Program-made: the position numbers and the translations under genes
Shown here: positions 41,483 through 58,807 of the stretch, piece after piece
Layout: every line of letters starts with the position of its first letter
How positions within the stretch are numbered: position 1 is the stretch's first letter
The notes under the pieces: generated by a model
What the model was told of the DNA's origin: nothing
Database searches by the model: none
The model's input: only the letters and a program-made list of their open reading frames with translations
From: Planctomycetaceae bacterium
GTDB lineage: Bacteria; Planctomycetota; Planctomycetia; Pirellulales; Pirellulaceae
Length of the DNA: 64,000 bases
Assembly: GCA_018660825.1 (NCBI GenBank)
Contig: JABJJO010000200.1
Location: 1-64,000, forward strand
Direction: 5' to 3'

Positions 41483-43246
41483 TTAGCGTTCAGCGACAAA
41501 CACCCGGGCCGATCCAATGACGAGTTGTCGTTTACCATAAATAACAACTCGAACTATTTGCAGCCCACTCGAAGCGTTGTCGACCAACACGTCAACTGAT
41601 TGAGGACCGACTTGCACCTCCCGCCGCACAGATACCCACACGGGATCGTTCGCCATCTCGTATTCTTCTGAGTACCCCTTCCAACGATCCGACTCCAGAG
41701 TTGCCCTAACTGCATCAACATTACGTTCAATCAAAGGTTCTCTTAAGACCCCACGCTGAGTGACAACTTCAATAACGGCTGCACCGACAATGGGCGCGTC
41801 AAATGTGACTCGCAACTTTTCCCCATGAGTCACGACCCCAGCACATTTCACTCGCATCCCGTCTGGATAATTCACTTTTAGCAACGGGTCACCAAGCAGG
41901 TTAAACATCCAACTGTGTTCTTGTCGTTCTTCTTTAAGCAAGCCCGCGTCCGGACTCGCAACCGCTGCGACTTGATCCAGCAAGCGTCGATTGGGAGAAC
42001 CTGATTTACCAGCGATCGCTACCAATTCCTGCTTAGCTAACAAAACAATCTCACCCAATGTTTCGCGACGATATTTAAAAGCTTGCCTTAACATAGAATC
42101 GCCCATAACGCTCATTGCATAAGGCATAGTCACTCTAGTCGCCGCTAAAACAGCAATCGCCCCATCCGGCGCCAAAAGCATCTGTTCGCTAATACTGGCC
42201 CGCGGTGAATCAAATGCGCCCGTACTGCAAGCGAGAAACACACAAATGGGGGGCACACCCCGTACCTTTAATTTCGCTGCATCTGAGGCACGATAAATGG
42301 GTAACGGCGGGCATTCCGGTGCTCGCAGTACGTCGAGGTCATAGCGTTGTCCATGACCCATGTAAACCCAAAACAGGCCGCCTTCGTTAAATCGGTCTAT
42401 CGTCGTAGAACTAAACTCCATGGGCGCTGGACAATAGGGACTCTGCCAACTTGCATAAGTCATCGATACATCAAACGACTCAGGAATCCCGCCGCCAATC
42501 AACCGGCGGGAAATGGTGTCTATCAAGCCATCAGCCAAAGGTCCAAATCCTCCAACACCTGCTACAAAATGCACGTTGCGTTTACTGACGTGATTAGCAT
42601 AATCCTTTTCGTACGAAATAATACGTTGTACTAACTGAGTTAACTGTTGTCGATTTTCCGCGGGTAAACGCCCCAGTGCCACATCGACTCGACCGTCGCC
42701 ATCAAAATCCGCGTAATGCGAGTCGGACGCAATTTCTGGGTCCGATCCAAACAGAACATTTACCTTTGCGCGGTGGTAAAACGTGGGTACCTCCACCGAC
42801 AATATCGAACCCAACGGTGGTTTGGATATTTTTTTTGAACCAGTATCTCCGCGTACATAACTTGGTGCATCACCGACAATTAGGATCGCCTTGACTTGGG
42901 ATCTGCGAGGCAGCGCCAAAATGGTTGCGCGAGTCAATCCAGCAGTCGCAGCTGGCACGACAAACTGCAACTTGTGACCTTGCTTTTCGCGATACTCACA
43001 CCAAGGCTGCAACGCACTTCGCAGCGCGACGGGACATACAACAACTGTGTCCGTGGCGACAATCGTACTGCCAGAAAAACAAGTGAACCACCCCAGAGCA
43101 GACAAAGTCAACAAAGTATTTAGCGGAAAAACTCGCCTCAACTGTTGACGGTTAACAAGCGAAGCATTCCAACGAATTGTCATCCACCGCATCAATCCGC
43201 GATCTCCTAATGCACTAATTAACCAATGCCAATCCAACAATTGCAC
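41483..43246 (-). CDS. C25 family (gingipain-like) cysteine peptidase
   Basis: VKAILIVGDAPSYV; YADFDGDGRVDVALGRLPAEN; catalytic-type motifs FWVYMGHGQRYD and CVFLACSTGAFD; N-terminal hydrophobic segment; true start may be 43192 or 43183. Confidence 0.85.
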   Translation of the reverse strand: MQLLDWHWLISALGDRGLMRWMTIRWNASLVNRQQLRRVFPLNTLLTLSALGWFTCFSGSTIVATDTVVVCPVALRSALQPWCEYREKQGHKLQFVVPAATAGLTRATILALPRRSQVKAILIVGDAPSYVRGDTGSKKISKPPLGSILSVEVPTFYHRAKVNVLFGSDPEIASDSHYADFDGDGRVDVALGRLPAENRQQLTQLVQRIISYEKDYANHVSKRNVHFVAGVGGFGPLADGLIDTISRRLIGGGIPESFDVSMTYASWQSPYCPAPMEFSSTTIDRFNEGGLFWVYMGHGQRYDLDVLRAPECPPLPIYRASDAAKLKVRGVPPICVFLACSTGAFDSPRASISEQMLLAPDGAIAVLAATRVTMPYAMSVMGDSMLRQAFKYRRETLGEIVLLAKQELVAIAGKSGSPNRRLLDQVAAVASPDAGLLKEERQEHSWMFNLLGDPLLKVNYPDGMRVKCAGVVTHGEKLRVTFDAPIVGAAVIEVVTQRGVLREPLIERNVDAVRATLESDRWKGYSEEYEMANDPVWVSVRREVQVGPQSVDVLVDNASSGLQIVRVVIYGKRQLVIGSARVFVAER

Positions 43247-44594
43247 GACCGTGGTGCTTGTTTAACACTAAACACTTTTCATATGATTCTCGAGCCGAGG
43301 CACGATCGTTCAATGCCCGCTGTGATTCCGCCAAGTAGAACCAAACCTGCTCTTCTTGTACCAATACATCGCTAGCTTTCGTGAACGAAACTATCGCCTC
43401 GCGAATATTATTATCACGCCATTGCAACTTCCCAGATTCATACTGATGCCAAGCGTGGTAAATCGTTACCTTTTCTTGACTGCCTTGAGTTTGATACAGT
43501 TGAACTAATTTGTGACAAATCTCCGCATTAGCCTGAAATGTTTTGCTGGCACGAATTCGAGTCCCACGCAACCAAGCCGCTTCGGCTTTACCCTCATCAT
43601 CCATCGCTAAAAATGCATCACCGGCGAGTTCCCACAGTCGAGTTGATTCTCCATCATGGATTAACCATTTCGATAGATAAGCCAACGCCTTCACTGGTTC
43701 ATCATTTGCCAAGTGAGCATCGATCATGGCCTCCGCATAGCCTGGTCGCCAAAGTGGATCAATCATCTCGAGTGCCCTTGCTCCTTCATTAACCGCCTTT
43801 TCAAATTCCCCTTTTTGTAGTGCAACCGAACTTGCCAGCATATGTTTCGCCGATCCCATACTTGCAACCGCATCCACATCCCAATCGCGAGACAACGGAT
43901 AAATAATTATCATTCCCGAAGTATGCATCGAATGATCGTAAGATACGCGAGCTTCATATTCATCATACGTATCACCGGGCACCTCATAGGCCCAAGATCG
44001 CATTTGGTGAGCACGCATCGAATTAGGATTACGTGTGATCAAACCGTCGAGCACACGAATCGCTTCCGAAACTCGATCCTCACGAATTAGGATACGTGCC
44101 AGGCTCAACTCTGATATCGGATCGGCGCCCGCCTTGCGAAGATATTTTTCGGCTTCAGCACGACGATTCAAACGCAACAAATTAAAACCTATCTGTTGAT
44201 TCGCATGAACAGCCAATTCATTATTGGAATTCGCCACCGGCAATACCATCTGAATCGCTTTTTCCATTTCCCCCCGACGACTCAAGCAAATCCCATACTT
44301 AAACTGTTGCTCCAGCGTCAAACTACCCAAACTCGTCGCGCGTTTAAAACAATACTCAGCCTCGGGCATCAGTGCAAACGTAGTGTAAATTTGACCTAGA
44401 TTAACCCAATCATCCTTACTGTGTGTATCTAAGTCTGTCTCCATCTGACGGACAGCCGTGCGATTACCCAGTTCTAATTTATTCACACGTGACTTTACAG
44501 GCGCACTGAATCCACCATTTTTCTGATAACGCATACCAATCAAAACTAATTCCACAACCACTATGATAAGCAATACAACTCGAGATCGTTTCAC
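43215..44594 (-). CDS. TPR-repeat protein with N-terminal membrane anchor
   Basis: VVLLIIVVVELVLIGM anchor followed by multiple TPR-like repeats (e.g. AEYCFKRATSLGSLTLEQQFKYGICLSRRGEMEKAIQ). Confidence 0.8.
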   Translation of the reverse strand: MKRSRVVLLIIVVVELVLIGMRYQKNGGFSAPVKSRVNKLELGNRTAVRQMETDLDTHSKDDWVNLGQIYTTFALMPEAEYCFKRATSLGSLTLEQQFKYGICLSRRGEMEKAIQMVLPVANSNNELAVHANQQIGFNLLRLNRRAEAEKYLRKAGADPISELSLARILIREDRVSEAIRVLDGLITRNPNSMRAHQMRSWAYEVPGDTYDEYEARVSYDHSMHTSGMIIIYPLSRDWDVDAVASMGSAKHMLASSVALQKGEFEKAVNEGARALEMIDPLWRPGYAEAMIDAHLANDEPVKALAYLSKWLIHDGESTRLWELAGDAFLAMDDEGKAEAAWLRGTRIRASKTFQANAEICHKLVQLYQTQGSQEKVTIYHAWHQYESGKLQWRDNNIREAIVSFTKASDVLVQEEQVWFYLAESQRALNDRASARESYEKCLVLNKHHGRAIVGLALVN

Positions 44595-44596
44595 CG

Positions 44597-46096
44597 CTAC
44601 TCCTTAATCCAAATGGTTATGGGCTGATTCTCAACTATACTCAATGGGATTCTAAATTGGCCGGCAACGATATCATTTTTTCCATCACCGTCTACATCAC
44701 CACACCCCACGGCAATTAACTCGGTTGGTTTGGTGTCGACCAAGTGTTGTCGATTGAATTTATTGTTCTCATTTTCAAGCCAAATAATGCTCGGATTCCG
44801 GGGGTTTGCATAGTCGTTGGACATGCTAACTAGGACAACATCGGTATCGCCATCGCCATCAACATCAGTAGCCGCCGTTCCGTAGGATCCGCCGAGTTGA
44901 CCGATTTGTTCATCTTCGAATTTCCAGTCACCTAAGTTTCGCAACCAAATCACTCCATGATATGGTTGTGGCCAACCGTGACCAAATTCAAGATTGTCAC
45001 CTTGACTCATGAGCAGATCCATCTTGCCGTCCTGGTCGATGTCTGCTGCGATCAATCCGCCACCACCGACGTCGAAATTGTCAGTCAGAAACAATACGCG
45101 GGGCGTAAAATTGCCTTGACCGTCATTTTCAAGAGCCCAAACTTCCTCTTCGTCTTGGGTGACTATGGCTCCAATATCCAAATCGCCATCATTGTCGTAG
45201 TCCGCGACCGGCACATGTACAATTCCTGGGCGGGCGATGATCTCTTTATCGCGATAAACGCCGTCACCCATATTTTCTAGTATAACAACTCCCCCGCGCG
45301 CATAACCAAAAACGGCTACGACTAAATCCGTGTCGCCGTCGTCGTCGAAGTCACCAAACTGTACGTCAGCCACTCGACGAACATCCCGCAACAGCACCCG
45401 CCGTCGGTAACCCTCATCAACCTTTTCGAACAACGTCACTGTGCCAATTAACTCATCCGAAGGCATCAAGTCGCCTAAGGTCGAGACGACGATATCCTGA
45501 TCGCCGTCTTGGTCAACATCAACAACCGTTGCGTGGGCTGGCGCAATTAGCTTGTCGCCTATAAGCGTTTGATCCCATTTATGCCGAACAGATCCGCTAG
45601 ACAATACGTCATTTAGAGCATCTGGATTGGTTTCAAGTTGTTTCTGGATATCAATTTTCTCGCTACCACGATAATGATAAGCGGTTACCGTGTTTTTCGA
45701 AGCATTGCAAACTAGGATTTCTTGATCCCCATCGCCATCAATATCGATTACTTGGACGTTAGTAATCCGGATTTCATGAGCCGCTAAATTTTCATCAAAC
45801 GGTGCGTCATTGACTTGCAGCAACTCAGCAAATTCGGCAGGAATGTGTTTTTTGATCGGCAGAGAAATTTGACTCCAATTCACATCTGGGTGCCGAGTCA
45901 AAATTGGAATTTCTGAGTTCAACGCCGGCTCGACCCCCATCATCCCCCAAGTTACAGCCAAAAGACCGCACAAACAGAACAACAACATTGCCATCACACT
46001 AGGCCGGTGCAATCTGTCACTTGAATCAGCGACAATCGTTTCTGAATTATCTATTTCCGTTTGCATGTCGTCTGATGCACACATTCTTTCGCCCAT
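44597..46096 (-). CDS. FG-GAP/VCBS-repeat beta-propeller protein, membrane anchored
   Basis: Seven Ca-binding type motifs: DIDGDGDQE, DVDQDGDQD, DFDDDGDTD, DYDNDGDLD, DIDQDGKMD, DVDGDGDTD, DVDGDGKND; N-terminal TM. Confidence 0.88.
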   Translation of the reverse strand: MGERMCASDDMQTEIDNSETIVADSSDRLHRPSVMAMLLFCLCGLLAVTWGMMGVEPALNSEIPILTRHPDVNWSQISLPIKKHIPAEFAELLQVNDAPFDENLAAHEIRITNVQVIDIDGDGDQEILVCNASKNTVTAYHYRGSEKIDIQKQLETNPDALNDVLSSGSVRHKWDQTLIGDKLIAPAHATVVDVDQDGDQDIVVSTLGDLMPSDELIGTVTLFEKVDEGYRRRVLLRDVRRVADVQFGDFDDDGDTDLVVAVFGYARGGVVILENMGDGVYRDKEIIARPGIVHVPVADYDNDGDLDIGAIVTQDEEEVWALENDGQGNFTPRVLFLTDNFDVGGGGLIAADIDQDGKMDLLMSQGDNLEFGHGWPQPYHGVIWLRNLGDWKFEDEQIGQLGGSYGTAATDVDGDGDTDVVLVSMSNDYANPRNPSIIWLENENNKFNRQHLVDTKPTELIAVGCGDVDGDGKNDIVAGQFRIPLSIVENQPITIWIKE

Positions 46097-46266: not shown

Positions 46267-49200
46267 TTATGACGTAATTGTTTCCATTGAAACGGGACTC
46301 GGAAACCAACACCGCAGGATCCAGAGTAGCGATCCGGTGAACAACAAAATACCGTAAATTGGAAAAATCCAACCGAAGATCATCGGCAGGCTAACCAGTA
46401 TTGCTAGCAGCGCTACAATGGTGCTAACGACTCTTGTTTTACTTATCACACGCACGAGCAAAAATAGTATGCTTAAGCTAATCAACACAGCCATCACTCC
46501 GCCCACTCGCCAAATCGACTCGCGCAACTCCAAACCTAAGTAGTTTGCACTGAACTCATATTTGTCATCCAAATACTCAAAGTCAAAACGATCGTATTCC
46601 ACTTGAAACTCCACACTGTCAAAATCCAAATCGAATCCAGTGACGCTAGCCAAGCCCGTCGCTTCCCGGCCGGCAAAATATCCGTTCGATGCACGACCAG
46701 AATCACCCACTGCAGATTGATCGAGTTGTTGTTCACCGCCCATGCCGCCCATGCCACCCCCCATGCCACCGACGTTTTCGGATTGGGATTCGTTGCTAAC
46801 TGTAGGCTGTTCATCTCCCATGCGGCCGCGGTGTATGCTGGCAACTCCATCAACGATCGTTCCGTTTCGCATTTCTAATTCAGTCTGTTGTTGCTGCTGG
46901 TAACGCTTAAATTGCTCTCGCTGTTGCGTCAGAGGGGAACTGAAATTTTCTTGATTTCTCTGTGACGCATTTAAATCAAATCCGAGGTCTTGCCCTTGGG
47001 GCCCCGTAACACTCTGTTTTTGCAAGTCGTCTAACTTATCGCCTTTACCTCCTTGATCTCGATCGTAAAGCCGTCTATTTGTCTTACCTTCCTTGCTCTC
47101 ACCACTTTGCGGTGCCAGCAAACTATTATTTCTAAACCAGAGTCCATCGGCTTCTTTCTTGCTGCTCGGTTTTACCGCTGACTGTGTACTCGGAACGTCA
47201 AAATTACTTCCTAATTGATTCACCGCGTTTCGCGAAAAACCATTGGACTGCTGTTCAAAACCTTGCTGCAATCTCGCTCGATTATCCAGCATCAACTCAT
47301 CATTTTCCTGACCGGAACTCTCGTCTTCTACTAGTTCAAGCACCTGCTCTCCCAACTCCGCTAAATCCTTTTCGTTGCGTTGGTTAATGTCGCTTTGATC
47401 GGAATACACATTCAAATCGGTTTGAGTTTGTAAGCTATTGTACAAACGGATTTTTTCGTAATCATTTCCAGACTTTGTTGCCCGCTTCAGCTTTCCAGAC
47501 ACTTCTTCATTCACCACAATCGCCTGTCGAGATAGTAATTCACCGTTGGTAAATCGCGAAATACTTCGTCCCGCAATCATCCCCCAACCGCTGTCCGATT
47601 GATGATTTAGCGGCTCAGCGTCTCCTCCAAATCCATACCAATTATGCCGTTTCGGTAAATACAGCTTTAAGAATAATTTTTCTGCTTGAATATTCGTCGT
47701 GCGAATAAATGGCAACATGCTCAATTCTCCGTATTGCGATAAGGCTTTCATCCACCCGGCGTAATGAACCACAACTCGATACGACAAGTCGCCCGCATTC
47801 GTCTTTACCAACGGAAGCCGAATTTGCCCTGCAACTCCAGTGTCCACAGGTTTAACGGGTTCTCCAGCAACCAATACGGACCACAATTTAGACTCCAGGG
47901 GTATTTGGATGTCAAGAAACTGTTCTTTTTGATTGTCAACTAGTAACTCAATCTTGCCACGGTAAGTCCCAGCGTAATCAACAATCAACGAAGTCGTAGC
48001 CATACGGATTTTTGCTTCATCTTTATCGACGATGTCTCGCGATTGCGTCCTAAATTCCAATACCGCTTGATCCGCGTCACCCTGCACGACAAACGCCTTC
48101 AAGACGCGTTCACCAATAACAGCCGTCAATTGATTCCATTGTTTTTGCTGCCGATTCAACGCAACAACATTGGACATCGAATCCAATACCTCTTCGACAA
48201 CATCTCCACTACTCTCAAGTGAAATATATTGCTGCTGCACTTCCGCATTTTCGACAATCGGAACCGGCACCTTATTGCTACCGCCTGGTTGCCGATCATT
48301 TTCGACAAGCACGCTATATTCGCCTAGAATTTCATCTTCCAAATACAACGTGACTCGGATGGGTGACTGAGGGTCATCACTATCCACGGGTGTCTTATCG
48401 ATTTGCCGAACATACTGTCCCCGTATTCGACTATCTTTCAATGCAGCCGGTAGCAGAAAGCGGACTTCCTGGATCCCAGCATCTTCGATTTTATACGACA
48501 GCAAAATGGTTTCTTCGATTGATCTATTTGAAACATTCGCATTTGAAAACGTGGTGCACGCCACTTTAGGTGTGCGTCTGACCAATTTAAATCGAGCGGA
48601 GTAGTTTTTCCCCGTGAACCTCAACGCTGTCCGCGCCATTGTTCGCTGACTCTGCTTGAGCCACGCGAACATGGTGGCCATCGATACGGATTCCCCTTGG
48701 GTGACATCAAGCAACTCAATATTGAACGACGGGTCCGACAACAAAACGGTTTGCCCACGTTGACTCGTAACCCCCGGGGTCGCTAAATACGGCACATCCG
48801 TCGTCATATCCTGCAGTTGCCGTTCCAACATACCTTCTATAAGAACGTTCAAATTACCGCTCACTCCATGAGATAATAATATCGTGATCAGTTGCGCCGG
48901 GCCACCTAGTGATTCGACGGGCGTAGCCGACCAATCGGCCAGCGCCGCCGTTCTAACTTGCCGAATCGCCAAATCAGCGGGAACAAGCACTCGAACTTGG
49001 TGGATTGGCCTATTTTGAATTCGAAATTGCACCTGTGTTTCTAACGAAATCTGTTGTGGCGAAACTCGGACCAGCGAATTAATATTTGCGGTAACGGCTG
49101 CGGTAACGGGCTTCGCGGTGAACTGCAAATCAAACCCTGTCCCACTGAATCGATACGCCTGTACAACCTGTACTCCCAGCGGGTTAACCCGATTGGCCGG

Positions 49201-52200
49201 TTGAGCGGTTTTCGCTATCGCTTCATTGACATCATCTCGATTAACGCCCTGAGTCTGAGTAACAAACAATTCTAACGCGGGGCTGCGGCGAATGGTAATT
49301 GTACCCTTTTGAGAAACGGCGTCTGGAACAGATACTGCGGGCACTGAGAACAAATCACCCGTTTTCTCGGGCAAGCTGCGATAGCGTAACAAACCAATAT
49401 GGAGCGTCGCTTGGTTTTCGGCCGGCTCTAACAGTTCAACGGTAACACTCTGCCGATCGTTGGCATCCCGCTGTACTTCCCAACTACGAATATTCCCGCC
49501 CGTTACCGCCGCCACCCGATATTCTTTGGGTACGACGAACCTAAAGATTTCTAATTGACTATTTCTAAATTCCAGTCGCACTTGCCAATCAACATACACA
49601 CCATCTTCTTGCACATCCACGAGTATTTGCGAGTCCGCTATCAGATCACGATCCGCTCCGTTCTGAGAGACAATTGACCGCCAGCGAAAATCAAATCCAC
49701 CATTTAGTTTAAGCGGCGACTCCACCCGTTGATTATCCACGTCGGTATTCAATTCAGCAGTGCCTAAATGGCCGTTCCACCTTATTTCAGTATCCTTACG
49801 AGGCACGTTCAGCACTAGCAAACCAGCCGCCCCAATCGGCAAACTACCTTTTGCCAATCGCCAACCACCTTGCCGTTGCACTTGTAACTTAAAGCCGACC
49901 CGCAATTCATGATGCCCCCGTCCCTTAATGAATAAAGTATGACTATTGCCGCGCAGAACTTGTTGCGGAACTGTATTCACTGCTTGTTGCCCTGCCCCAT
50001 TGGTTGGATTCCCAGTACCGCCATTAAGCCCACGCACTTGGATTTGCGCCGGTAGTTTGTCGAGGGTCGCATATTGTAAAACAAGATCATTCAAGGCCAA
50101 GCCAATAGCGACTTCCCGTCCACTGAACACTTCAATTCCCAGCACGCCTTCAATGAAAATCCCGTCATCGTCAAACAAAGTGCTCTCATACTTAACTGAA
50201 CTAAAAGCATATTCCACAGGCAACACTTCGTGCTCCAATGGTAATTCTGGGTAGGCCTGACGCCATAATTGAGAATACAACTCTAGCGGAATCAAAAGCT
50301 GATCTGCGGGAGTTCTCTTTGTTGGTAATTGAGCGGGATCATACGGCACGACAACAGCATCAACAGGAACTTGCACCGTCTGCACTTCTTCGCTCGGTTC
50401 ATTCTGCTGTGCATTGGCGATCCCGCTAAACAGCAGCAAAGCAAGAAACAAACCACAACCAAGTCCGGTGATTCTCGAAGCTCGTTTTCCAAACCAGCAG
50501 ACGCCCGGTTTAAGTAAATGGTAGAAGCAATAAATCAACGACAACGTGAGTGCCATCACAAACACAACTTCAAACACTTGCCGATAAAATCGCAACGCCG
50601 GAACAGCAGATGCTAATGCTACCAACGCCAGCACACCCAGCACGTAGTTGCGTTTCACCAGCACATCTCGCGGCAACAACAGCAAGCCTACAAGCAAAAC
50701 AGCGATGCCCGCAATCCAAGCCCATAAAGTGATAAAACTTTTACGCACTAACCTACCGACCAATTTAGGTGCACCACCTAAGCTTTGAAACTCGTAGCGG
50801 ACGAAATCCATGTATTTCACATCGAGGTCCCCGTTTGAATCTTGAGGTTTGTTCAACAGATCGACATTTAGGCTCTGCATGCCCTGTAACGCCCAAGTTT
50901 GACTCGCTCGATAGGAGTATTTATCGCCATTTCCATCGCCCAAAAGGTCAATTCCACCCATAGGCGACTCAGCTTCCTCGGGCACCATTTCACTACTGGG
51001 ATCAGGAGAAGCCGTTTGCCTTGGCCGGGGACTTGATTCCCCTTCCGCAAATTCCTTCAGAACACGGTCAGCCCCAGGCCTATTGCTTGGCCGATTAGGC
51101 GAATCACTTGGCGACGCTGGGGCCTCAATATTTGATTCACCCGCAAACACTTCCACTTGGTCCATTAGCTGTGATTTGCTGGCCGCCGATTCTTCTCCGT
51201 CCGCAAAATCGAATTCGGCAGTAACCGCAAAATCTTCTGATGATGGGGCGCTATACGCAACACTATCCGACATAGGAACTGCCATAAAATTCCGCACTCC
51301 TCCGCCACCGGCGAGCACCGCAAACGTCGCAAACGCACTTTGATTCAAAACATGTGGCAATCCCGTAAGTTGCATGTTTGATTCAGCATACGGCTGCACA
51401 ACAAAATTACCAGGTACGATCATTTGCCAGCGAATCAATCCTGCCTCAATTGGCTTTTGCTGTTGCTGTTGCTCTGCGGATACGCCAGCAAATTCAAATA
51501 GTTCGGGTGCCAGCAGTTGAAAACCATCATGGCCTACTGAAAGCCGTTCCTCGTAGACGATACGCAAATCCCGCTTGAATCCAACATTTTCTTTGGCATA
51601 AGGAATACTAACAAGAAAGCGATTGGTGGTGCCAGATACTTTCTGTGGTTTGACCGTATCAGCACCATCAATCACAACACTCCATAAACTGGCTTTCTCT
51701 GGCAGTGCTACTTGGATATAACTCGCTTTAGTTAAGATTTCAAAACGGGCTACCGATTGATACACACCATGCCTACTGACAAAAGAGACGATTTCACTGC
51801 GCTGAATTAACGTACTAGGCACACTGGATAATGTGGGCCTACTTATCGCTAACCGCACATTCGGCCGCATCCCCGTATATCCATAAGCTCCAACTCGATG
51901 TTTACCAACGTTATACCCATTAACAACCAACTCACCCACGTCGACAGGCTTAAGTCGCGAGTCTGGTCCGAGGTCAGTTGCCGCGGCATCCTCTACTTTA
52001 ATTGCTAACTCCGGTGACGATTCGACCGACAGGACTCCAGATTGATAAACAACACTTTCCGCGGTGGCAATTGCTGGAGTGTATGTGGTTGTAGATTCTT
52101 GGATCACTTGTTCAAAATCAACTCCAATAACAACCACTCCCGCAGTCGGCTTATCAAGCGTGACAGTCCAGAGGCGGTGCCCGTCCGCTTCTATACTTGA

Positions 52201-54210
52201 AAATTGCTTAACCACAGTACCCGCGAACCCTACAATATTGAGATCCGCGGGAGAGGAATCTGGTAATTTAAACTGTACTTTTTCCACAAGTGACTGCTGC
52301 ACGGTATACGTTAATTCACTGTAAGTCTTTAAGACACCCGGTTGCACATTGAGGAACGTAGCCAAACGCGCCGACAGCACCGGGACCACTCGTTTTGCCA
52401 CGACAGCAACCGTAAATTGCGGCTGTTCATATCGATAAGCCAACGCCAAACGGTCCGTCAATCCAGCTTGCTGTTTATCAGCAGTTGCTAACGTAACTAC
52501 CCCACTTACTTGCTCCGGCCGCACTTCATACACTTCCTCGAAACCAAGTTGCGTGCGAATCGCCAGCACACCCTTATCACGAAAAGTATCTTCGATCATG
52601 AACTTTGGTACGGATAAATGGAACTCGTCCCAATCGTCCAACCAACCCTTTGGTACGCGTTTTGCCAGCAATACGACTTGATGGACTTGCCCAAACGTTC
52701 TCCTAGCTGGGAATTTTGCATGTAAACGGCGAACTCCCATCTCGTCAGTCGTCTCGTGATATATCAACTGATCAGCACCCGTGTGCAAACTCACAATATT
52801 CCATTGCGAAGGAACTTCGATCGTAAGTGAATACAGATCGTCGAGTTCCGGAAAAACATTAAAGGAGACACTGACCGTATGATTGCTTTGATTCAAGGAC
52901 AATTGAGTCGTAGTCTGAACGTGAATTCTGTTCTCTGGGTGAGTCACTTGTGCACTGATCTTATAATCTGATTGCGGAACATAATAAGTTCCTAAGACGC
53001 GAATCAAAGGCGCACCCGGTTCAACCACAAATATCGACTCGGGCAGCGCCTGTTCAAGGATCTGAGTATCAAGAGCAATCACCCCATCTGTTTCCAATGA
53101 GTTAATGGCCAACCTACGATCCGCTAAAATACCAACGACCCCAGTGGACACCAAGACATCAAGGGGTTCAATTTTCGGGAATTCCCATTCGCCGATCGCC
53201 GGACCGCTATGCAACGCAGTGATCTTAATCAACAGATCTTCCGTTTGTGGAATCCGCATTTCAACTGTCAAAATCTGCTGTGAATCTTGCTCTACCACGG
53301 ACCAACGTGAAACTCCTGGCGCTTGCACGTCGGTGACCTGAAAACCAGCTGCTATAGCAAACCGAAAATCCGAGGCGGCACCTTGTTGCACTTGCAGGGA
53401 AAATGTTCCGTGCAATCGTTGAATGGCCTGAGTTAATTCTGCCACGAGCACATTGCGGGCAACTACAATCTCTTCGGTTTTAAGCCGCTTGTTATTGAGC
53501 GACATGGTGATCCGCAATGGCCCTGGCTTAGCCAACAGATCAAACCGCGTGACATTTTTCGCTTCATCCACGGTGCGGTCCAAAACGCTCGCACCAGATT
53601 TAATTTCGATATTCCCTGGCACAATCAACTCAATTCTCGAATTGGCGGCATGTGGCAATAACATCGTCAGGGTCTGCTCAGCCGCGGCATGCTGTACCGC
53701 TGCCGACATTGAAAACTGCACCTGTGATTTCCCGATGCTGGGCAGCAACAACCGAACCAATTGATCCGAATCACGCACCAACGAAGCCGAATTCTCACCC
53801 ACGGTAACGTTGAGAATAGAAACACCGGAAAACCCCAATGGCAGTTGCTGTAAACCGGCCGCTAGTGACTCAACTTCAAAATCACCGACAATCCGTGCCG
53901 AATCGCCGAGAATGTTAATTCGATATTTAACGCTACGTAATAGCGATTGTTGGGGCGGAGTGTCTCCTGGTTTAATATTTGCCTTCTTTAACAAGGCTTC
54001 ATATTCACCGCGCGGCAAGTAGATGCGTTGAATCCCAGATGCCAAAACTGTCTTTAAATCGTCAAAAGGCACATAGATTTCACGTTTCATTTCACCTTGC
54101 TGAGCAACCACTGCCAGCGCAGCACCAAAAACAGTGCACCACGACAATAGCATCAGCATTGATATTCGCAGGTAACGAGATGTGTTGATTTCATTGGGAT
54201 TCGTTCTCAT
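46267..54210 (-). CDS. giant (2647 aa) uncharacterised envelope protein, two-module fusion
   Basis: Single long ORF; N-terminal signal/TM; motif IYVPFDDLKTVLASGIQRIYLPRGEYEALL; internal TM cluster and signal-peptide-like SRITGLGCGLFLALLLFSGIANAQQ; second related module; C-terminal TM helices. Confidence 0.85.
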   Translation of the reverse strand: MRTNPNEINTSRYLRISMLMLLSWCTVFGAALAVVAQQGEMKREIYVPFDDLKTVLASGIQRIYLPRGEYEALLKKANIKPGDTPPQQSLLRSVKYRINILGDSARIVGDFEVESLAAGLQQLPLGFSGVSILNVTVGENSASLVRDSDQLVRLLLPSIGKSQVQFSMSAAVQHAAAEQTLTMLLPHAANSRIELIVPGNIEIKSGASVLDRTVDEAKNVTRFDLLAKPGPLRITMSLNNKRLKTEEIVVARNVLVAELTQAIQRLHGTFSLQVQQGAASDFRFAIAAGFQVTDVQAPGVSRWSVVEQDSQQILTVEMRIPQTEDLLIKITALHSGPAIGEWEFPKIEPLDVLVSTGVVGILADRRLAINSLETDGVIALDTQILEQALPESIFVVEPGAPLIRVLGTYYVPQSDYKISAQVTHPENRIHVQTTTQLSLNQSNHTVSVSFNVFPELDDLYSLTIEVPSQWNIVSLHTGADQLIYHETTDEMGVRRLHAKFPARRTFGQVHQVVLLAKRVPKGWLDDWDEFHLSVPKFMIEDTFRDKGVLAIRTQLGFEEVYEVRPEQVSGVVTLATADKQQAGLTDRLALAYRYEQPQFTVAVVAKRVVPVLSARLATFLNVQPGVLKTYSELTYTVQQSLVEKVQFKLPDSSPADLNIVGFAGTVVKQFSSIEADGHRLWTVTLDKPTAGVVVIGVDFEQVIQESTTTYTPAIATAESVVYQSGVLSVESSPELAIKVEDAAATDLGPDSRLKPVDVGELVVNGYNVGKHRVGAYGYTGMRPNVRLAISRPTLSSVPSTLIQRSEIVSFVSRHGVYQSVARFEILTKASYIQVALPEKASLWSVVIDGADTVKPQKVSGTTNRFLVSIPYAKENVGFKRDLRIVYEERLSVGHDGFQLLAPELFEFAGVSAEQQQQQKPIEAGLIRWQMIVPGNFVVQPYAESNMQLTGLPHVLNQSAFATFAVLAGGGGVRNFMAVPMSDSVAYSAPSSEDFAVTAEFDFADGEESAASKSQLMDQVEVFAGESNIEAPASPSDSPNRPSNRPGADRVLKEFAEGESSPRPRQTASPDPSSEMVPEEAESPMGGIDLLGDGNGDKYSYRASQTWALQGMQSLNVDLLNKPQDSNGDLDVKYMDFVRYEFQSLGGAPKLVGRLVRKSFITLWAWIAGIAVLLVGLLLLPRDVLVKRNYVLGVLALVALASAVPALRFYRQVFEVVFVMALTLSLIYCFYHLLKPGVCWFGKRASRITGLGCGLFLALLLFSGIANAQQNEPSEEVQTVQVPVDAVVVPYDPAQLPTKRTPADQLLIPLELYSQLWRQAYPELPLEHEVLPVEYAFSSVKYESTLFDDDGIFIEGVLGIEVFSGREVAIGLALNDLVLQYATLDKLPAQIQVRGLNGGTGNPTNGAGQQAVNTVPQQVLRGNSHTLFIKGRGHHELRVGFKLQVQRQGGWRLAKGSLPIGAAGLLVLNVPRKDTEIRWNGHLGTAELNTDVDNQRVESPLKLNGGFDFRWRSIVSQNGADRDLIADSQILVDVQEDGVYVDWQVRLEFRNSQLEIFRFVVPKEYRVAAVTGGNIRSWEVQRDANDRQSVTVELLEPAENQATLHIGLLRYRSLPEKTGDLFSVPAVSVPDAVSQKGTITIRRSPALELFVTQTQGVNRDDVNEAIAKTAQPANRVNPLGVQVVQAYRFSGTGFDLQFTAKPVTAAVTANINSLVRVSPQQISLETQVQFRIQNRPIHQVRVLVPADLAIRQVRTAALADWSATPVESLGGPAQLITILLSHGVSGNLNVLIEGMLERQLQDMTTDVPYLATPGVTSQRGQTVLLSDPSFNIELLDVTQGESVSMATMFAWLKQSQRTMARTALRFTGKNYSARFKLVRRTPKVACTTFSNANVSNRSIEETILLSYKIEDAGIQEVRFLLPAALKDSRIRGQYVRQIDKTPVDSDDPQSPIRVTLYLEDEILGEYSVLVENDRQPGGSNKVPVPIVENAEVQQQYISLESSGDVVEEVLDSMSNVVALNRQQKQWNQLTAVIGERVLKAFVVQGDADQAVLEFRTQSRDIVDKDEAKIRMATTSLIVDYAGTYRGKIELLVDNQKEQFLDIQIPLESKLWSVLVAGEPVKPVDTGVAGQIRLPLVKTNAGDLSYRVVVHYAGWMKALSQYGELSMLPFIRTTNIQAEKLFLKLYLPKRHNWYGFGGDAEPLNHQSDSGWGMIAGRSISRFTNGELLSRQAIVVNEEVSGKLKRATKSGNDYEKIRLYNSLQTQTDLNVYSDQSDINQRNEKDLAELGEQVLELVEDESSGQENDELMLDNRARLQQGFEQQSNGFSRNAVNQLGSNFDVPSTQSAVKPSSKKEADGLWFRNNSLLAPQSGESKEGKTNRRLYDRDQGGKGDKLDDLQKQSVTGPQGQDLGFDLNASQRNQENFSSPLTQQREQFKRYQQQQQTELEMRNGTIVDGVASIHRGRMGDEQPTVSNESQSENVGGMGGGMGGMGGEQQLDQSAVGDSGRASNGYFAGREATGLASVTGFDLDFDSVEFQVEYDRFDFEYLDDKYEFSANYLGLELRESIWRVGGVMAVLISLSILFLLVRVISKTRVVSTIVALLAILVSLPMIFGWIFPIYGILLFTGSLLWILRCWFPSPVSMETITS

Positions 54211-57200
54211 TATTCATCTCCCTCGCGATTTGAATTATCGTCATCGCTAGACACTGGGTCGTCAGGGAACTCGTCAGGTTCCGCTTGGCTATCCTCTGCG
54301 GGTGATAAAGTTTCAGCAATTTCATCCGCATCCTGTTCTTCGTCGTTTTGCGACAGCGAATCTTCTTGCGACTCGCTGGCGGCCTCGAGATCCTCAGCCT
54401 CATCAACTGCCGTATTCTCCACATCCGTTGCATCTTCAGCAGCGTTGTTTAGAGTCTGATCTGCTTCACCAACTGTATCTAGTGAAAACAACTTGCGGCA
54501 AATTCGAAAACAAGGTTTCAAACAATCCTTGATAACCCAAATCACGCACATTAAACCCATACCCAGAAACAAGCCGGAAAACGGCATGTGGCTCGCCATG
54601 ATTGGTTTAATTAAAACAACCCCGAGACTCGCTGACACGAGAACCAAGACCGTAATTATTTGATTACGTATTCCCAACCGAAGTCCACCGAATGTAACCA
54701 CCACCAAGACCCCAAACATAACCAAATGAAACATCGAAAGAGATACCGTGGACAGCCGCAAAGGCGATGCACTCGGATTAATTGCTGAAAAGATAAGACT
54801 GTCATGGTTGCTGAATTGATTTCCCAACTGCACGTCAACCTTGGCTTGGGTAATATTATTCAATAGTGAGTGAACATCGACAATTCCTTCTGTTTCGGAA
54901 TCGTGCAAGAGATTACGTTGGATTGTTTCCAAAAATGAACTCGGCAAATGGTCGTCCCAATCACCAGAATAATCCACCAACACGGTGCCTGACGGTAAAT
55001 GGACAACCATGAAAATTTGATTGATTGCGTGTAGGTCCTTAAACTCAGGAATACGCACAGTAAAACCATCTGATTCAATTGAGTACTTCAGCTCCAAGAC
55101 AAAATCTTCACCTGGGGTGGTGGTATTAAGCGGAATCAAATAGTTCTTCTGATTACCCACAGCATCCTCTGCATCCGCCGTGGTACCTTTTTCGATGCCG
55201 ACCGCCTCGCCGTTAATGGAAAGTGGGTCATTAGGAATTTTCGACCCCTGCGGAAATGTGACCGCGATTCTTTGAGCCGCACTTTTGACTCGATACACCG
55301 CGTGAACTCGTGACTTTCCACCTTTGGCAATTTGGACATCAATCACTCCTAATTCGATTGCGGAAAGTTCAATGGACTCTAGTTCATATCGGTGAATATC
55401 CAGTTTTACACTCCATGTCTGGTGGAATTCCATCGCAACCGCAGCACCGGGAACCTGCATCTCTGTCGAGCCTAACTTGAGGTCGTAACGAGGATCAATA
55501 GGACGTACACCGTCGGATTCCGCGGGAACGACATCTAAATTTTCCGTTTTCTTGATTACAATTTGCCCCCAACTTCTATGAACCTCTTGCGGCATTAATG
55601 GGTGCAGGGAAACACTCGCGGCGGACCCGACTTCCAAATCCTCTAGAGATTCTATCCACGACAACTCTACTTGGAATTGACCAAACAGTTCTCGATTTGA
55701 AGTCAACTGCCAGGCCGTGTAATCGTCAGCAAGATCGTCCGGCCGCGGGGTAATCACAGATTCTTGGACTAATTTCGAGTCATTGCGGATCATCTCAATC
55801 AAACTCGTAGGAATGTCTAATCTAAGTTTTTTCACGCCGCTGTAGCGGACATCATAAGCCAGTGTTACGGAGTGATTGATGATTCCGGATTGCACATCAG
55901 CAATCACTAACTGTCCCACTTCGATCTGCGGCTGCCTACGTTCAACGGAGAATGTCGGATTGAATGATTCATTGGCATACCTGAATGCGTGTACTGCTAG
56001 CGAACTGCCAACTCTACTCAGTTGCACCAAACCCGCAATACTCGGTTGCACTTCGCTAATGGCCACACTCTGCCCACCCGCAGTATCCACCGGCGTTACT
56101 CGCAAACCCTCGGGAGCTAATACTGTCACATTACCCTGAACATGCTCGACACTCGCAGCAACAATACGCGGCAACGCGAAAGTGTATTGCGAAGCCTCAC
56201 TCGTTGGCGTCAACAGGTTTACATCGGTACGCACCTTTTCGACAGAAACCAACAACGCCACCTGCCCTACAGCTTTGCGTGAGAAATTCACTCGGTATTT
56301 CCCCGGAGCGTTCTCTACTGCGTGGTGATTTTCAACAACAGCAGCCTTCACATTCGCCGCAGCAATTCCCCGAACACTTCGAATTCGATAACCTTCGGGA
56401 ACATCATAATCTACGTGAAATAGTCCAGCGCGTTGAATATCTAACAAAGTCGTTACACTCATACGCGTTAATTGAGGAGTGATTTGGATCGTGACATATT
56501 CCTCAACCGTGACACGCGGTTGCAGTTTTTCAATTTTAAGGATGAGTTCGTATGGCAACGCCGCATAGCGGTAAACAAAATCCCAACCTTGACCCGCATT
56601 AACTTCAGCGGCATCCACTTGCAGCAACCCGGTCCGCGTATCAACATCAGCTCGCAGGTCACCTTCCACTTTGACCATCACAAGTCCTTGTTGGCGTGAA
56701 ACGTTTAACGCTTCGATCTCGGGAATGATGACGTCGACCGATTCGTTCTGCATGCCTACTTCAAGATCAAACCGTTCCAATTCGATATTAATGGTTTGTG
56801 TAGAGTCCGCTGGTTCGAATAACTCGATCGTAATAATTTGATTACCCTCTTCCAAGGCGACATCCCAACGACGAACATTTGCATCAAATACCCCGGAAAT
56901 TTTTTGCCCCACAGGAATCCGCAACTTCAATTCACGCAACTCACTGCGGGTAATTGAATAGACTAGCTGGGCTTGTGTCCGTTGAGACCCCTCGCCAATA
57001 ACAACACTTTGACGAGTCTGCACTGTAGCTAACGCCTGTAATCCCGCAGCACCTTCGCTGCGCGGTGTCCAATCGATATGAACCTGAGGTGTTAAGCCAA
57101 AGAAAGCAATCAATACAGTTTCAGTTGCAGGTGCTACCGGTGGACTCGGATCGCCAGTAGCGTTATCCCGCGCGGCGCCATCCTGTGTCTCAGTGGCGGC

Positions 57201-57914
57201 CACTAACGGCTGCACGTTTACTTTCACACCAGGGTCGGCAATCGTGATTTTCCAGCGGTTAATGGATGCTTGTGGAGCTTGGAATGAAACTTGATTCAAG
57301 CCCGGTGATTGATTGTAAGTCCGCGCGTATTGGAGGTCTAAGACGACATCTGCCGCATCACTTTCCTGTCGCTGCATCAACAGGAAATATCCCTGTCCAG
57401 GCCGAAAAATGATACGCGCAGTTTCATCGCCGATGTTTGCTTCGGAGATTGCCGCATCCGCTAAACGCAATGGGATTTCATGCCAACCTAGGCCTAGCAT
57501 TTGAATCGACAATTTGGCGGAAACCTGCATAACATCACCGCGAACTATCGCTTCAGAGGAGATCGATGTAATCATTGACCGCAGAGGAATCGAAACAGGG
57601 TTTTCTACTGCATTCTTCGCGCGCGCAGCTTGCCATAATTTTTGGAATTCATCATACGGCAAGAAAACACCACGTGCTGGAGATTCAAACACTTTTGATA
57701 ATTTGTCGTAGGGAACGTAAATCGTCTGTTCGAATAACGAGTTCTTTTTCTCGCCCGTATCTTCCGCTTGTTGTGGCGCGGCGGCAACCGGCGGAACTTC
57801 CTGTGATCGCACGACACTTGGAACGTAAAAGAGCGAGGCTGCAATAAAAAGACTTAATAATATTTGAGTAGTTCGTTTCAACATCGAGTCGTTCCCAGTT
57901 CTATATGTCAACAA
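54210..57914 (-). CDS. uncharacterised envelope protein (1234 aa) related to the modules of the 2647-aa protein
   Basis: Signal peptide, IYVPYDKLSKVFESPARGVFLPYDEFQKLW motif, C-terminal TM helices plus highly acidic tail; stop/start overlap TAATG with the next gene. Confidence 0.85.
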   Translation of the reverse strand: MLTYRTGNDSMLKRTTQILLSLFIAASLFYVPSVVRSQEVPPVAAAPQQAEDTGEKKNSLFEQTIYVPYDKLSKVFESPARGVFLPYDEFQKLWQAARAKNAVENPVSIPLRSMITSISSEAIVRGDVMQVSAKLSIQMLGLGWHEIPLRLADAAISEANIGDETARIIFRPGQGYFLLMQRQESDAADVVLDLQYARTYNQSPGLNQVSFQAPQASINRWKITIADPGVKVNVQPLVAATETQDGAARDNATGDPSPPVAPATETVLIAFFGLTPQVHIDWTPRSEGAAGLQALATVQTRQSVVIGEGSQRTQAQLVYSITRSELRELKLRIPVGQKISGVFDANVRRWDVALEEGNQIITIELFEPADSTQTINIELERFDLEVGMQNESVDVIIPEIEALNVSRQQGLVMVKVEGDLRADVDTRTGLLQVDAAEVNAGQGWDFVYRYAALPYELILKIEKLQPRVTVEEYVTIQITPQLTRMSVTTLLDIQRAGLFHVDYDVPEGYRIRSVRGIAAANVKAAVVENHHAVENAPGKYRVNFSRKAVGQVALLVSVEKVRTDVNLLTPTSEASQYTFALPRIVAASVEHVQGNVTVLAPEGLRVTPVDTAGGQSVAISEVQPSIAGLVQLSRVGSSLAVHAFRYANESFNPTFSVERRQPQIEVGQLVIADVQSGIINHSVTLAYDVRYSGVKKLRLDIPTSLIEMIRNDSKLVQESVITPRPDDLADDYTAWQLTSNRELFGQFQVELSWIESLEDLEVGSAASVSLHPLMPQEVHRSWGQIVIKKTENLDVVPAESDGVRPIDPRYDLKLGSTEMQVPGAAVAMEFHQTWSVKLDIHRYELESIELSAIELGVIDVQIAKGGKSRVHAVYRVKSAAQRIAVTFPQGSKIPNDPLSINGEAVGIEKGTTADAEDAVGNQKNYLIPLNTTTPGEDFVLELKYSIESDGFTVRIPEFKDLHAINQIFMVVHLPSGTVLVDYSGDWDDHLPSSFLETIQRNLLHDSETEGIVDVHSLLNNITQAKVDVQLGNQFSNHDSLIFSAINPSASPLRLSTVSLSMFHLVMFGVLVVVTFGGLRLGIRNQIITVLVLVSASLGVVLIKPIMASHMPFSGLFLGMGLMCVIWVIKDCLKPCFRICRKLFSLDTVGEADQTLNNAAEDATDVENTAVDEAEDLEAASESQEDSLSQNDEEQDADEIAETLSPAEDSQAEPDEFPDDPVSSDDDNSNREGDE

Positions 57915-58150: not shown

Positions 58151-58807
58151 CTATTTCAAATAGCGATGAACTTCGGTAGCCATCAACTTGGCACCTGCTG
58201 CATTGGGATGCACACCATCAGGAAACATTTCCGGATGCGGAGCTAAAACTTTATAAATGTCAATCAGTTTGACACCTTTGGACTGTCTGGCAGCAGCCAC
58301 CACTGCCGGAATGACTTCTTGCTTGACAACTGCCTCGGTTATACCCCAGCGGTCCTTCGCTACGGGTGCCGGTTTACAAATCCAAACTTGTGGCTGGGAT
58401 TCAAGTTGCTTAAAAATGCGGACTAAGTCTATCAAATCCTTCGTGAATTCGTCTTTGTATTTCCAATTCTGTGGTTTACTATCGTTGCTGCCAAGCTTGA
58501 TAACCACCAATTGGGGCTTAAACTTTTTAGCCGCTGCAAACGCGGACTCTTTCCAATAAGGCTTATCTCCTTTTTTCAGCAATGTCGCTCCGTTGACACC
58601 AAAGTTTTTAACGTCGTATCCAGCGCCCAACAAACGGTCAAGTACTACCGGATAGTTATTGTTGACGCGGTCTTGAATTGCAGCACCGTAGGTAATGCTG
58701 TCACCGACACATGCAACTCGAATCGGTGCAGCTACTAGGTTTGTGGCCCAATAAATCCAAAGAGCCAACACAAAACAGCAACGCCAAATTGACAATCTTT
58801 TAACCAT
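58151..58807 (-). CDS. SGNH/GDSL hydrolase family protein, secreted
   Basis: IRVACVGDSITYGAAIQDR, FGVNGATLL, KLGSNDSKPQNW, DGVHPNAAGAKLMA. Confidence 0.93.
   Translation of the reverse strand: MVKRLSIWRCCFVLALWIYWATNLVAAPIRVACVGDSITYGAAIQDRVNNNYPVVLDRLLGAGYDVKNFGVNGATLLKKGDKPYWKESAFAAAKKFKPQLVVIKLGSNDSKPQNWKYKDEFTKDLIDLVRIFKQLESQPQVWICKPAPVAKDRWGITEAVVKQEVIPAVVAAARQSKGVKLIDIYKVLAPHPEMFPDGVHPNAAGAKLMATEVHRYLK

Follow-up and report, generated by a model that had tools for sequence, protein, structure and literature searches.

What are the two giant exported proteins that are encoded back to back in a planctomycete genome, and what might they do for the cell envelope? The window analysed here is a stretch of 64,000 nucleotides from Planctomycetaceae bacterium (contig JABJJO010000200.1), for which a preliminary description had proposed that these proteins are built from three copies of an uncharacterised module. 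In the following, the 1234-aa open reading frame is referred to as C, and the two halves of the 2647-aa protein as A and B.

The C–AB gene pair

Genes C and AB were found as described, adjacent and on the minus strand, in an operon structure in which C is transcribed first and shares 4 nt (ATGA) with AB. The listed reading frame of C (54210–57914, 1234 aa, hereafter P0002) starts with a TTG at 57914, which is probably wrong and ten codons too far upstream: the ATG at 57884, with the signal peptide MLKRTTQILLSLF right after it, is the likelier start. From this ATG, C is 1224 aa long. Residue numbers given below nevertheless refer to the 1234-aa listed frame for P0002, and to the 2647-aa AB protein for P0001. 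In most genomes seen, the coding DNA of a pair amounts to approximately 10–12 kb.

54210..57884, minus strand: gene C, one module, from the signal peptide through the acidic cytoplasmic tail; the open reading frame extends to TTG 57914
46267..54210, minus strand: gene AB, two modules in a single 2647-aa protein

Three homologous modules and their internal repeats

The three-fold homology, previously deduced from a motif and a common layout, extends over the full length of the modules. Indeed, blastp aligns A with C (1e-17 over approx. 870 aa), B with C (1e-19) and A with B (2e-7), and profile–profile comparison gives a probability of 100% across 842–869 columns for every pair of A, B and C, against 0–0.4% for column-shuffled profile controls. 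The count of three copies, however, is too low for the repeated unit: the three modules stand, but each of them holds three canonical repeats of approximately 178 aa (nine per pair), with divergent beta domains on both flanks. Windows cut from the C profile align to further regions of C at steps of approximately 180 residues, and a repeat profile seeded with two units of module B (A and C being outside the seed) and then iterated detected three neighbouring units per module, with E-values of 1e-23 to 1e-36 that are partly circular because the iteration took in the window proteins. Shuffled and reversed versions gave this profile no significant match, nor did the other window proteins. The nine repeats, with the E-value of the repeat HMM (i-E), are:

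56517..57026, minus strand: canonical repeat C-1 (P0002 297–466), i-E 4e-36
55929..56513, minus strand: canonical repeat C-2 (P0002 468–662), i-E 3e-30
55386..55925, minus strand: canonical repeat C-3 (P0002 664–843), i-E 9e-27
52942..53460, minus strand: canonical repeat A-1 (P0001 251–423), i-E 3e-31
52381..52926, minus strand: canonical repeat A-2 (P0001 429–610), i-E 6e-23
51838..52377, minus strand: canonical repeat A-3 (P0001 612–791), i-E 1e-25
49105..49638, minus strand: canonical repeat B-1 (P0001 1525–1702), i-E 2e-36; pLDDT 90 in the AF2 model
48568..49095, minus strand: canonical repeat B-2 (P0001 1706–1881), i-E 3e-32; pLDDT 90 in the AF2 model
48049..48564, minus strand: canonical repeat B-3 (P0001 1883–2054), i-E 9e-24

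In a 19-member alignment, the columns that never vary hold W, L, P, G and S; charged residues or Cys in a catalytic-looking set are missing among them, a composition that fits a structural role.

Topology and the hook motif

Each module consists of an N-terminal signal peptide or transmembrane (TM) helix, a conserved motif that we call the hook, approximately 1000 exported residues and about three TM helices. Signal peptides were recognized by hydropathy at the N-terminus of both C and AB, and the layout, which runs from an N-terminal signal or TM helix through a large exported stretch to TM helices at the C-terminus, recurs in relatives, where the number of helices varies somewhat; the exported and membrane-anchored topology first proposed is thus supported for all three modules. 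The three related motifs reported after the signal peptides were likewise all recovered, at P0002 65, P0001 45 and P0001 1286.

57801..57884, minus strand: signal peptide of C (hydropathy)
57630..57731, minus strand: hook motif of C, EQTIYVPYDKLSKVFESPARGVFLPYDEFQKLW (ranked first among windows of C in the conservation scan)
54516..54755, minus strand: three C-terminal TM helices of C (hydropathy; helices also in the AF2 model)
54213..54497, minus strand: acidic cytoplasmic tail of C (sequence)
54100..54171, minus strand: signal peptide of AB (hydropathy)
53983..54081, minus strand: hook motif of module A, EIYVPFDDLKTVLASGIQRIYLPRGEYEALL (conservation scan and genome motif search)
50407..50742, minus strand: central TM block of AB (approx. 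residues 1157–1268), in which three helices close module A and one re-exports module B (hydropathy)
50260..50358, minus strand: hook motif of module B, VVVPYDPAQLPTKRTPADQLLIPLELYSQLW (conservation scan and genome motif search)
46711..47403, minus strand: Q/S/G/N-rich low-complexity linker of module B (sequence)
46303..46518, minus strand: C-terminal TM helices of AB (residues 2565–2636; hydropathy)

By the usual rules applied to hydropathy, the modules are predicted to be exported, with cytoplasmic C-termini and an acidic tail on C. As the TM anchors are C-terminal, a periplasmic location with anchoring in the inner membrane appears to fit better than the cell surface. The hook is the top-conserved 30-residue window of C (z 2.5) and is among the top windows in AB, yet its pLDDT is low in the monomer model of C (about 42–68), which suggests docking on another component or folding on a partner. 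Its use as a general docking tag was considered and rejected, a genome-wide motif search having matched just the three modules.

A family outside the libraries, with a predicted tandem beta-sandwich fold

No characterised family had been recognized in these proteins at the outset, and the searches agree. Neither Pfam nor NCBIfam gave a match above the curated cut-off for the C and AB proteins (nor did Pfam for 19 members of C and 58 of B), PADLOC models of anti-phage defence gave none, and a profile search of PDB sequences returned no sequence-level relative with a solved structure. As judged from these comparisons, the family is described by none of the protein-family libraries searched.

A partial fold was obtained by prediction. 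The AF2 model of module C (pLDDT 79) consists of all-beta domains followed by three helices, its pTM of 0.44 leaving the arrangement of the domains uncertain. Two units of module B, modelled from a 58-row alignment, gave a pLDDT of 90 and a pTM of 0.74, with one strand pattern repeated twice and two strands of approximately 24 residues in each unit. The beta-rich character attributed to the exported region is thus found in the models of both C and the two B units; the structural likeness expected between modules is retained in the strand order, which matches between the models of C and B, whereas the arrangement of domains in C stays uncertain.

With Foldseek, integrin-alpha legs are the top match of module C, and ribophorin I/Ost1 is the best PDB match of the two-unit B model (E 2e-9, probability 1.00, both repeats aligned). 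In the models, the domains are tandem beta-sandwiches, with ribophorin I and the legs of integrin alpha as the nearest folds. Because global TM-scores are low (approx. 0.3 against ribophorin I/Ost1), we read these matches as the same kind of tandem fold and not as homology; other strings of beta-sandwiches scored nearly as well as ribophorin I/Ost1, and a search of viral folds returned weak beta-rich matches and nothing else.

Two alternative functional readings draw on the fold. The modules could act as non-catalytic parts of machinery for export or protein modification, as ribophorin I does beside the translocon; beyond the Foldseek match, the predicted plan of the modules (signal peptide, beta-sandwiches and C-terminal TM segment) is that of ribophorin I. 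However, STT3 (PF02516) exceeded the cut-off in 0 of 30 relatives while four archaeal controls were positive, so that the ribophorin-like reading loses its partner, and with no sequence-level match to ribophorin I, a low global TM-score and near-equal scores for other beta-sandwich strings we regard it as highly doubtful. Alternatively, paired 24-residue strands, rod-like repeats and an inner-membrane anchor might belong to a bridge conducting lipid or LPS across the periplasm. The top Foldseek matches, however, are chains of beta-sandwiches rather than the grooves or jellyrolls of AsmA, TamB or Lpt type, and Pfam detected neither AsmA nor Lpt; such a bridge has but the slimmest chance of being correct.

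Distribution and duplication of the pair

A related protein is present in 269 of the 297 genomes of the order and, in a phylum-wide sample, in 33 of the 36 other genomes of the class; beyond the class, it was counted from the table of that sample in 34 of approximately 240 Planctomycetota genomes (approx. 14%). The importance surmised for the proteins agrees with this conservation. Their planctomycete character is retained too, now as a property of the whole class, beyond this lineage alone.

The scan of named genomes used a 12-row alignment, the 19-row one being too diverse. AB follows C at 79 named loci. Of the exceptions to this order that were examined, all but two lie at or near a contig edge; in one of these two, AB is divergent, and in the other it is hidden by an antisense reading frame. 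C and AB strictly form a two-gene unit. In two other genomes of the class (f23), C has a shorter partner (1502–1596 aa), and in one genome of another class C, A and B are three separate genes in that order (L225:4334–14887), which the tree places with C (SH-aLRT 96), with A (99) and with B (90), respectively; all three modules are therefore kept together, fused or unfused.

The pair is duplicated as a unit elsewhere in the same genome: a second, diverged pair (1206 and 2426 aa, 4-nt overlap) lies on another contig (C181, L185:1529–12426). A search of this genome with P0001 alone gave no paralogue, and a deeper profile recovered the second pair. It is found in relatives too, and we refer to the kind of pair in the window as type 2 and to its paralogous kind as type 1. 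Downstream of the second pair in this genome lie genes named from sequence as a putative acetyltransferase, a PlsC-like acyltransferase, an ATP-grasp protein and a C1-transfer-like protein.

Type-1 modules match their type-2 namesakes best (profile scores 322, 314 and 401; crosswise pairs, where tested, scored 200–231). In the tree, A1 groups with A2 (99) and B1 with B2 (90). For these reasons, the split into two pairs probably came after the triplication of the module. The kinship of C1 and C2 is strong by profile, their tree leaves the placement of C1 without resolution, and we do not claim a full dating of the split.

Planctopirus limnophila (its genome taken as that of DSM 3776) carries both pairs. 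Its type-2 genes lie at approximately 5,186,786–5,194,768 and 5,195,501–5,199,022, its type-1 genes at approximately 2,368,897–2,373,003 and 2,373,000–2,380,070. This species takes dextran and GFP into its periplasm by an unknown system (PMC5394234), which could favour a receptor or binding device for macromolecules, the beta-sandwiches binding a ligand in adhesion or in polymer uptake into the enlarged periplasm; fold matches to integrin-alpha legs and, more faintly, to bacterial adhesins (3fcs, 1n67) point the same way. We nevertheless consider this function unlikely, as TM anchors at the C-terminus put the modules at the inner membrane and not at the surface, Pfam matched no carbohydrate-binding or known adhesin family, and near-universal conservation is unusual for an adhesin.

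Gene neighbourhood

Outside the genus, type-2 loci have no conserved neighbour, which fits a self-contained structural unit. In the window, a tight cluster on the minus strand after AB (41483–46096) encodes an FG-GAP repeat protein, a TPR protein and a gingipain-like Peptidase_C25, an order kept in the four genomes of the same genus that were examined. As a candidate part of the system this cluster was rejected and left out, because no type-2 neighbour is conserved outside the genus. An SGNH/GDSL esterase gene (58151–58807), also conserved within the genus, lies upstream of C on the same strand.

Type-1 pairs are directly preceded, on the same strand, by an inositol monophosphatase gene at 12 of the 20 loci examined (L069, L071, L078, L080, L180, L210, L213, L216, L218, L222, L223 and L224), the family assignment being confirmed by Pfam for one locus. 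Moreover, three genomes (G011, G032 and G035; loci L063–L068) encode a third, remoter AB-like protein of 2330–2383 aa (type 3), directly downstream of a YfbK-like VWA protein, and an ECF sigma factor gene adjoins the type-3 locus in the one genome examined for it (L064).

This placement of type 3, together with the long acidic cytoplasmic tail of C, would suit modules that sense the state of the envelope and signal inward through their TM blocks and this tail. Against such a role, no consistent regulator was seen beside the type-2 and type-1 loci examined, the tail of C is poorly conserved, and the placement of type 3 in the tree rests on long branches. A sensory function thus seems rather improbable.

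A proposed periplasmic scaffold

We infer a structural periplasmic complex because the proteins combine the lack of a catalytic signature with all-beta repeats and anchors in the membrane, and because their tip is conserved and their pairing strict. Our working model is a mutually docking periplasmic scaffold anchored in the inner membrane, to which we give an even chance. In this model, the two genes would yield a hetero-complex of three homologous modules, the association of C with AB being proposed from their co-occurrence. Each module would be exported through its N-terminal signal or TM helix, kept in the inner membrane by a C-terminal set of about three TM helices, and would extend into the periplasm as a rod of approximately five beta-sandwich domains (three canonical repeats plus divergent end domains), with the conserved hook at the far end. 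C, A and B would stand side by side, in a ratio fixed by translational coupling, and their hooks would dock into either an adjacent module or some partner. The result would be a large passive scaffold or tether organising the envelope; we take structural support of this unusual planctomycete envelope to be the probable role of the pair. The inositol monophosphatase beside type-1 pairs, and the ECF sigma factor and YfbK-like VWA protein beside type 3, count against a purely passive scaffold.

The planctomycete periplasm is enlarged and convoluted, and press-stud-like crateriform structures link the inner and outer membranes (PMC5394234). We found no description of the make-up of these structures in the literature. 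That C–AB complexes form their inner-membrane half, the three rods being the post and the hooks the catch, is a very improbable extension of the scaffold model. Most of the genes for peptidoglycan synthesis that other bacteria require are dispensable in Planctopirus limnophila, and a transposon essentiality screen of strain DSM 3776 has been published (PMC10632474). As both pairs occur in this species, the question is directly testable, partly from existing data. Among the factors that may shape planctomycete envelopes, C–AB is one candidate family, near class-wide and often present as two paralogous pairs.

Comparison with known systems

Ribophorin I/Ost1 has a signal peptide, luminal beta-sandwich domains in tandem and a C-terminal TM anchor, a plan like that predicted for the modules. 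C–AB differs in having many more repeats, three modules per pair and about three TM helices per block, and the 30 relatives scanned lack an STT3 above the cut-off; the ribophorin I family model was itself unlisted in the Pfam scans (19 C and 58 B members) and in the PDB-sequence profile search. The leg of integrin alpha (thigh and calf) is likewise a string of beta-sandwiches on a C-terminal membrane anchor, whereas C–AB is bacterial, has a poly-TM anchor and lacks a sequence match. No FG-GAP match, corresponding to the propeller of integrin alpha, was obtained in P0001 or P0002; an unfused FG-GAP protein is the next gene downstream of AB, in this genus only. Alpha-2-macroglobulin and complement proteins gave weak Foldseek matches (complement C5, TEP1r; probability 0.54–0.66), and Pfam detected no A2M match for this family. 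Finally, surveys of planctomycete giant genes (more than 5 kb; PMC5177795) and of the long surface proteins of Tuwongella (PMC8567305) treated long genes in general. C–AB shares with them its very large size, its export and its planctomycete origin, but it constitutes one ordered, conserved and duplicated two-gene family.
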